Of a DNA stretch of 64,000 nt, positions 35,337 through 50,282 are shown in pieces. A model generated the notes under the pieces. It did not search any database and was not told the origin of the DNA. It saw nothing but the letters and a program-made list of their open reading frames with translations. The position numbers were made by a program, and so were the translations under genes. The first letter of the stretch is position 1. Every line of letters starts with the position of its first letter. The DNA is from Methanococcoides vulcani (GTDB lineage Archaea; Halobacteriota; Methanosarcinia; Methanosarcinales; Methanosarcinaceae). Location: contig NZ_FOHQ01000002.1 in the NCBI RefSeq assembly GCF_900111645.1, positions 124,001-188,000 on the forward strand, written 5' to 3'.

Positions 35337-36464
35337 TTATAGTACTCCTCTATCGGGATCAATGGGCGAAGGGATAAATTCGTGATCCTCATGTCCCTCC
35401 AAATCCAATTCATCATCCTCATTGACAAAATTGTACAGATATGCATGTTTGTGCTTTCTTTTAATCTTAATTAGTTTTTTCAGTATTTCCTCCATTTTCT
35501 GATCGATCGGCCAGAATACTGATGCAGCAACATTATGTATTTTTGCCAGATCCATTGAGAACGCAATTAATGATAGAACGATCTCCTCTTCGAACTGTGG
35601 TATGTATGCATCTTTCAACTGCATGGTCTTAATGTCTTTTTCAGAACATGCAATATCAAATACAAAATATCCAACCAGTTTATCATTTCGGGTATCGATA
35701 CACTTGATCACATATCGCTTCTCGGCGACAGCTTTTGAGAAGTATAGCCATTTAAGTGTCTCTGCATCTCTGCACAGTGTTGTTGCATTTTCTTTTCTGC
35801 TGTTTTTCCACAATTCTGTGAACGAATCATCACAATCTGTGCATAGAGAACATTTGTAATGATTCGGTTGTAACTTAAATGTTCTTTTATCCTTGAACCA
35901 TTGAACAAAAGGTGAGATCAACTTTATGGGCACCAATGAAATTTTTATTAAAGGTAGCAGCCTGTGAGATTTAATGTTCGTTCGTATATATAAATCATAC
36001 ATTTTTCCATAATCTCGAATATACCAGTATTCTAGATTCTTAAACGGGACATCGAGATCAGAAAACCCGAATTTGGAGAATATTTTTGCCACAGTCTAAT
36101 TTGCCGTGGTGTTGAGCAGGAGTTTAATATTTTTCTGTCTGGCAAATGCCAGTATCGGCTGAAGGCTGTTAACTCCTCGCACTGAAGGTCGCACATATAG
36201 TGATGTACCGGCTGCAGCGATATCATCTCTTCCTTTTATCTGATATTTTACAGGGATATTCCCCAGAAAACCAACAATTTCCGATTTCTCGTCTTCAATG
36301 ACCCAGCCATACGGGATGGATCGATCCATCCAGGGATTGTTAATCCACCACATCTCGAAATGAAGCTGCCAGATCTCAGGTGGGATCTGTAACCCCTCTC
36401 TCAAGAAATCGGCCAGTTCTGAAAAATCCTTTTCCTCCAGAGTGCGTATCTTTGTTGATTGCAT
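35337..36464 (-). CDS. GNAT-fold acyltransferase-like protein interrupted by an in-frame TAG (possible pyrrolysine codon)
   Basis: The frame from ATG 36464 reads MQSTKIRTLEEKDFSELADF to LLLNTTAN, then TAG at 36096-36098, then continues without any other break as TVAKIFSKFGFSDL to TAA at 35337: 375 codons in all. Residues 1-170 resemble an N-acetyltransferase core (GWVIEDEKSEIVGFLGNIP, AAAGTSLYVRPSVRG as the CoA loop region, and the NTTAN-x-TVAKIFSKFGF helix). The TAG lies inside this last conserved helix, where many relatives have glutamate. Either UAG is decoded as pyrrolysine or the gene is a nonsense mutant. The C-terminal half (about 175-375) is not recognised. Confidence 0.6.
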
Positions 36465-48912: not shown

Positions 48913-49220
48913 TGGATTATATGTGTTTCTGGAAGTGTATATGATATTTCGTTCATCTGGAATGGTTGAACACATGCGACCGGTGTCTATTATTTTATTT
49001 TTCGAATAATTATGATGCAAAAATAGTACGAATATGTGTATATGCGAAATACGATATAGATTTGTCAAATGATTGAAAACGCATCCAATGTCCTTTACTT
49101 ATTGCAACTTTCTAAGAGAGTATTATCTAAAACAAGTATATTTATATAATATGTTTCTGTTCTCTGCACTTCTTATAGGGTATCTAATGGTGTGCAGTTA
49201 GTACAATTAGGGTGGATAAT
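48913..49220. other. AT-rich gap between the nfo remnant and the GT2 gene
   Basis: About 310 bases, rich in A and T, with TATATTTATATAATATG at about 49136-49152 as a plausible promoter, 70-80 bases before the ATG at 49221. No gene is visible. Confidence 0.45.
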
Positions 49221-50282
49221 ATGAGCGACGAAAGTGGATCCGTTCAGGGTACATAGGATTACAGCTGTTACAGCAGGACCGGCATAACCGCTGTACTGCC
49301 TGCGTTCAACGAAGGTGTCTCCATCGGGAGTGTGGTGCTCCTTACAAGACACTACGTTGACGAGGTAATAGTGGTCGATGACGGCAGCAGTGACAATACT
49401 GCGAAGATCGCTGAAATGGCCGGTGCAAGGGTCATCGTGCATTCCCGGAACATGGGGAAAGGTGCAGCACTGCGAACAGGCTTTGACGCTGCAAAGAACT
49501 CCCGCGTGATCGTGACCCTGGACACTGACGGCCAGCACGACCCCCAGCAGATCCCCTGCCTTGTAGCTCCTATCCTTTCAGGCCAGGCTGACATGGTGAA
49601 CGGCAGCAGATACCTGCACGGCAAGGAGACCGACACCCCCTCATACAGGAGGGTCGGCCAGACAGTGCTCGATCATGCTACCAAGCTTAACAGCGGAATA
49701 CACATCACCGACACCCAGAGCGGTTTCAGGGCCTTCTCAGGCCACACATACGATGCCTTCCGCTTCAAAGCCGACAACCTCGCCATCGAAAGCGAGATGC
49801 TCGCAGATGCCTCCAAAGCAGGTCTGCGAATAAAAGAAGTGGATATAGATGTCCGCTACGACGTGGACTGCTCCACCGAACACCCCGTAAAACATGGCAT
49901 AGGAGTTCTTGTAAAGATTCTCAGGGACATGGAGTTCAACAAACCCCTGTACTATTTCACAGTTCCCGGCATGGTAATTGGCCTGACCGGCCTGTATTTC
50001 GGAATGAGATCCCTGCAGACCTTCTATCTTGGTGGGAGCCTCAATTTCGGCCCAACGATGCTAATGGTAATGCTGACCATCGTAGGCACTTTCATGGCAT
50101 TCACAGGACTTATCCTGCACTCGATCGCAAGGACCATTCACATGCTTGTTCCAAAGCCTTCGTTCGCTCATCCCAATCCTGAACATGTGAGTGTGGACGA
50201 GGATGCTGAAGAGGAAGAGGTTGAGGCTGTGGCAGTGAAGAAGGCTGGTGAGGTGAAGGTTGCTGCGGATGTGCAGCGGTGA
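49221..50282 (+). CDS. GT2 glycosyltransferase (dolichol-phosphate-mannose-synthase-like) with an in-frame TAG at codon 12
   Basis: ATG 49221 has a good ribosome site (AGGGTGGAT) and reads MSDESGSVQGT, TAG (49254-49256), DYSCYSRTGITAVLPAFNEG and onward to 50282, 353 codons. The GT-A domain is complete past the TAG: ITAVLPAFNE, VIVVDDGSSDNTA, TLDTDGQHDPQQIP (DxD), MVNGSRY, DTQSGFRAFS. Two helices at about 245-265 and 275-300 and an acidic tail follow. No ATG, GTG or TTG lies between the TAG and GTG 49332, which is already inside the fold, so a working protein would need UAG read as pyrrolysine. Otherwise it is a nonsense mutant. Confidence 0.75.

Follow-up and report, generated by a model that had tools for sequence, protein, structure and literature searches.

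Frame and start of the glycosyltransferase gene

How can a glycosyltransferase gene of Methanococcoides vulcani with a TAG triplet at its twelfth codon yield a complete enzyme? The gene lies at positions 49221 to 50282 on the plus strand of the window, by which we mean the whole stretch of 64,000 nucleotides that was analysed. With UAG read as pyrrolysine it encodes 353 residues, and the translation matches the GT2 profile Glycos_transf_2 (PF00535; E 2.9e-26, 92.8 bits versus a gathering cut-off of 23.3), position 2 of the profile falling at residue 24. The frame contains a single TAG (49254–49256) and closes with TGA at 50280–50282; translated from the ATG at 49221, it begins MSDESGSVQGT-O-DYSCYSRTGITAVLPAFNEG. 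The original prediction described a start at ATG 49221 behind a good ribosome site, a TAG at codon 12 and a frame running on into an intact GT-A fold, and these coordinates hold, with no other stop in the frame.

Signals for expression can be read upstream of this ATG. They consist of a TATA-like promoter element (TTTATATAA, 49141–49149, plus strand), whose TATATAATATGTT is kept across an alignment of G000, G002, Methanococcoides seepicolus and G016, and a ribosome-site-like TTAGGGTGGA (49207–49216, plus strand), with AGGGTGG before the ATG. In the ribosome-site alignment, GTGGATA is kept in four species and GGGTGG in three of these four.

Past the TAG, the first canonical start is the GTG of codon 38 (49332–49334, plus strand), where the ORF begins under table 11. 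The claim that no ATG, GTG or TTG intervenes, and that this GTG already lies past the first conserved strand, proved accurate. Codons 13–37 (49257–49331) hold beta strand 1 (residues 22–28 of an AlphaFold2 model, in which residues 1–17 have pLDDT below 50) together with N30 and E31, both invariant columns in an alignment of 31 homologues. GTG 49332 is itself inside helix 1 (residues 35–42) and is no workable start, as initiation there would remove strand 1, both invariant residues and part of the helix.

Few other cases came up when 660 gene-like ORFs from 800 kb were searched for an ATG that has a ribosome-site-like motif and whose frame meets a TAG ahead of any further canonical start. They were genes already known to be read through and stretches that were short or coded poorly. 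The closest was a phosphoribosyltransferase-like gene in L063 (minus strand, upstream of 1889), which has no ATG, GTG or TTG before its first motif and may start at an ATA behind GGAGG.

Conservation of the TAG and selection on the frame

Orthologues of the glycosyltransferase gene occur in 3 of 11 Methanococcoides genomes, this one included. In each, the twelfth codon is TAG and not a sense codon, and the frame is otherwise free of stops, which goes beyond a chance occurrence. The two from other species (G002 and M. seepicolus LLY) are 83% and 90% identical to the query, the latter value being that of M. seepicolus. The presence of the TAG in three genomes rules out a sequencing error as its source. 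Its conservation is suggestive, not strong, evidence of selection for pyrrolysine itself, because there are only three orthologues and three of the ten codons flanking the TAG are likewise identical in all of them.

The prediction that the gene is still selected is borne out: disabling changes are absent, the frame stays intact over 340 codons in the three species with dN much lower than dS, and purifying selection acts both before and after GTG 49332. For codons 13–37, dN is 0.02–0.04 and dS 0.18–0.62. Codons 13–21 alone differ by 2–4 synonymous and 0–1 nonsynonymous changes per pair, and because these differences are mainly synonymous, though the counts are small, they indicate that the stretch, which lies upstream of both GTG 49332 and the ATA of codon 22, is translated. 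The comparison before the TAG, where there are 11 codons in all, gave a looser pattern: codons 2–11 change faster (dN 0.09–0.43), as expected of a flexible tail.

Relatives on Methanosarcina plasmids start with MSSES or MSGES and contain no stop; past the TAG position they align through a (N/D)Y....RT stretch and then strand 1. Their tail, which begins MS.ES, is unbroken, and the comparison supports ATG 49221 as the inherited start. Plasmids of Methanosarcina carry GT2 relatives, two of which were read, both without TAG. We rejected the idea that the gene came from a virus or a mobile element, as viral contigs gave distant GT2 relatives only. Another genus of the same family holds a remoter GT2 relative (L013, genome G022) with an in-frame TAG elsewhere, after strand 2, about 46 codons after 1501 in the context VAT*AGAEV.

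Pyrrolysine machinery in the genome

The pyl genes, which were to be looked for elsewhere in the genome, are all present and lie on the same contig as the window. They comprise a tRNA-Pyl gene (pylT) with anticodon CTA and the genes for PylS, PylB, PylC and PylD, each scoring well above its curated cut-off. PylC was matched by the NCBIfam model, and the PylC-like N-terminal model PF21360 had no match. PylS was found in all 11 Methanococcoides genomes searched. There are two mtmB genes with one TAG inside each and two mtbB genes, also each with an in-frame TAG.

UAG as a probable sense codon across the genome

TAG usage was sampled on 800 kb (the window and further stretches) of the 2.3-Mb, 15-contig genome. 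Of the 660 gene-like ORFs, 359 stop at TGA, 292 at TAA and nine at TAG; in the first 400 kb of the sampled DNA, TAG makes up 18% of stop triplets in all frames. The nine are the two mtbB genes, SepCysS, an FrhB/FdhB-like protein, a histidine kinase, two apparently spurious frames, short and of low score (window 34142 and L063), a 74-residue TPR-like frame, which is perhaps a true TAG end, and pylB.

Several of these ORFs continue past their TAG, with Pfam or NCBIfam domains that extend over it. SepCysS (Sep-tRNA:Cys-tRNA synthase; L091, 6088–7239, minus strand, G000:C5) has the triplet at codon 102, and the product read through it matches the entire family profile with 593 bits against a 365-bit cut-off. 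The C-terminal domain of the FrhB/FdhB-like protein (L087, 8110–9276, plus strand) and the HATPase domain of the histidine kinase (L099, 7521–10193, plus strand) each span an in-frame TAG. An integrase-like gene (L072, 14417–15454, plus strand) also carries one, as does a second gene in the window (35340–36464, minus strand), where the TAG at 36096–36098 is the 123rd of 375 codons; at this position seven relatives within the genus carry K or E, with no stop.

In pylB (L055, 8794–9906, minus strand) the TAG stands at the natural C terminus, the family profile stopping two residues earlier. Beyond it, 42 further codons lead to the next stop and overlap pylC; pyrrolysine may in this way feed back on the pathway that makes it. 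Given this gene end, UAG termination may sometimes still occur. Overall, the stop usage suggests that UAG in Methanococcoides is in effect a sense codon, nearly unused as a terminator.

The original prediction had noted that Methanosarcinales, a lineage it rightly supposed here, decode UAG without an obligatory context signal, and the findings at the glycosyltransferase locus agree with this. No covarying RNA structure was found 3' of the TAG, the predicted fold lacking compensatory changes among three sequences, and an Rfam search of the TAG-containing stretch gave no credible match. Reviews state that pyrrolysine insertion requires no cis element and competes with release factor (PMC8211752, PMC9499178). 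The glycosyltransferase UAG would be explained by its tolerance as a sense codon throughout the genome and not by a local signal.

Read-through and its alternatives

No other explanation of the locus comes near the reading of the UAG at codon 12 as pyrrolysine, which we regard as very probable. The ribosome would initiate at ATG 49221; at the UAG, tRNA-Pyl (anticodon CUA), charged by PylRS, would insert pyrrolysine; and translation would carry on to the TGA at 50280 to give a GT2 enzyme of 353 residues whose C-terminal part forms membrane helices. A special signal would be unneeded, UAG having nearly ceased to act as a terminator in this genome. The candidate put forward by the original prediction thus gains support from the pyl genes, the conserved TAG and the purifying selection, all of which are shown here along with the frame and the scarcity of TAG stops; pyrrolysine incorporation, the efficiency of read-through and the substrate of the enzyme are inferred.

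The UAG and the 11 codons before it could also form a regulatory leader at which ribosomes partly stop and partly read through, so that glycosyltransferase output tracks the supply of charged tRNA-Pyl. Retention of the TAG while several adjacent codons change would fit such a leader, and so would a locus in G016 (L016, G016:C14, about 495115–496035, minus strand), where the glycosyltransferase promoter and first 8 codons are retained in front of a different GT2 body. The upstream kilobase there is 92–94% identical to that of G002 up to codon 8; the short frame then closes with TGA, and the next codon is the ATG of a GT2 gene with 52% identity to the query. At the least, then, translation of a short leader is tolerated, and a role of its own for the leader is a minor possibility. 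The G016 arrangement is, however, readily accounted for as a recombination scar and looks like a gene-body swap. In addition, UAG termination is apparently rare genome-wide, no conserved RNA structure follows the TAG, and the leader DNA is absent before other genes in the 11 genomes. We consider a regulatory leader improbable, and there is equally little likelihood that the UAG ties production of a surface-glycan glycosyltransferase to charged tRNA-Pyl, and with it glycosylation to methylamine metabolism. The idea of a reusable regulatory unit was rejected: only 4 of the 11 genomes have this promoter and leader, each in a single copy that lies 5' of a GT2 gene.

Less probable again than a regulatory leader is that the UAG truly terminates a short upstream frame, the enzyme itself starting non-canonically. 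The most plausible site would be the ATA of codon 22 (49284–49286, plus strand), the sole codon immediately ahead of beta strand 1 at which non-canonical initiation is conceivable. It is ATA in all three species, and the phosphoribosyltransferase mentioned above may offer a parallel elsewhere in the genome. To our knowledge, ATA is not an established archaeal start, and only a weak ribosome site, not a good one, precedes it here. Codons 13–21 would then be untranslated, whereas they vary mainly synonymously and can be aligned to the tail translated in the Methanosarcina relatives.

Finally, the stop-like codon within the frame might mark a decaying pseudogene, or a truncated product might be made from GTG 49332, but both are hardly credible given 340 intact codons with dN well below dS in three species and a truncated protein that would be deprived of strand 1, N30 and E31.

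Family and likely role of the protein

By sequence, the nearest solved structure to the read-through product is dolichol-phosphate mannose synthase (5mlz), and by fold it is ArnC (9bhc). The best NCBIfam match is AglJ (TIGR04182), whose 153.2 bits are so far under the curated equivalog cut-off of 325 that the AglJ label is not warranted. The protein resembles these polyprenyl-phosphate GT2 enzymes in its GT-A domain, its DDGSSD and DTDGQH motifs and its C-terminal membrane helices, and differs from them in a 20-residue N-terminal tail that includes the UAG. Neighbouring genes encode GT4 glycosyltransferases, AMP-ligase-like proteins (Pfam matches below cut-off) and a disaggregatase-related surface protein. 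The gene is therefore likely to encode a polyprenyl-phosphate-type GT2 acting on surface glycans, within a surface-glycan gene cluster.

Pyrrolysine at residue 12 would sit in the disordered N-terminal tail; a catalytic role is unlikely there, and the residue is most likely tolerated. The case for a function of residue 12 itself is weak, as the tail is poorly constrained.

Relation to known pyrrolysine decoding and significance

Decoding of UAG as pyrrolysine is an already known kind of event, of which the glycosyltransferase would be a new case. The machinery (pylTSBCD), the codon and the freedom from a required context are those of the Methanosarcinaceae methyltransferase genes mtmB, mtbB and mttB, and machinery and methyltransferase genes are present in this genome. 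In contrast to the methyltransferases, the glycosyltransferase has its UAG in a disordered tail and not in the active site. It is closer to the non-methyltransferase UAG genes of Methanosarcinaceae (transposases, a TetR-type regulator and CobN; PMC3639795, PMC1242214), which likewise are ordinary genes in which UAG is tolerated. Candidates with a UAG that species do not share have been noted (PMC3639795), whereas that of the glycosyltransferase is retained in three.

A word search of the main text of PMC3639795 and PMC1242214 found no glycosyltransferase. In the literature that we searched, neither this gene nor an archaeal code of the all-TAG type was described. A 2025 report is said to describe an archaeal code in which all TAG codons are read as pyrrolysine. 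TAG terminators that are all but missing and numerous genes running across a TAG, as in the 800 kb sampled here, fit what such a code predicts. The Methanococcoides case differs in that the TAG of pylB still stands at the natural C terminus.

With the glycosyltransferase, the non-methyltransferase pyrrolysine genes gain a well-supported member, its UAG being common to three species. Annotation under table 11 would cut or mis-start such genes, including the glycosyltransferase, SepCysS and the FrhB-like protein. Genes of this type also make it testable how these archaea retain or drop UAG as a stop.
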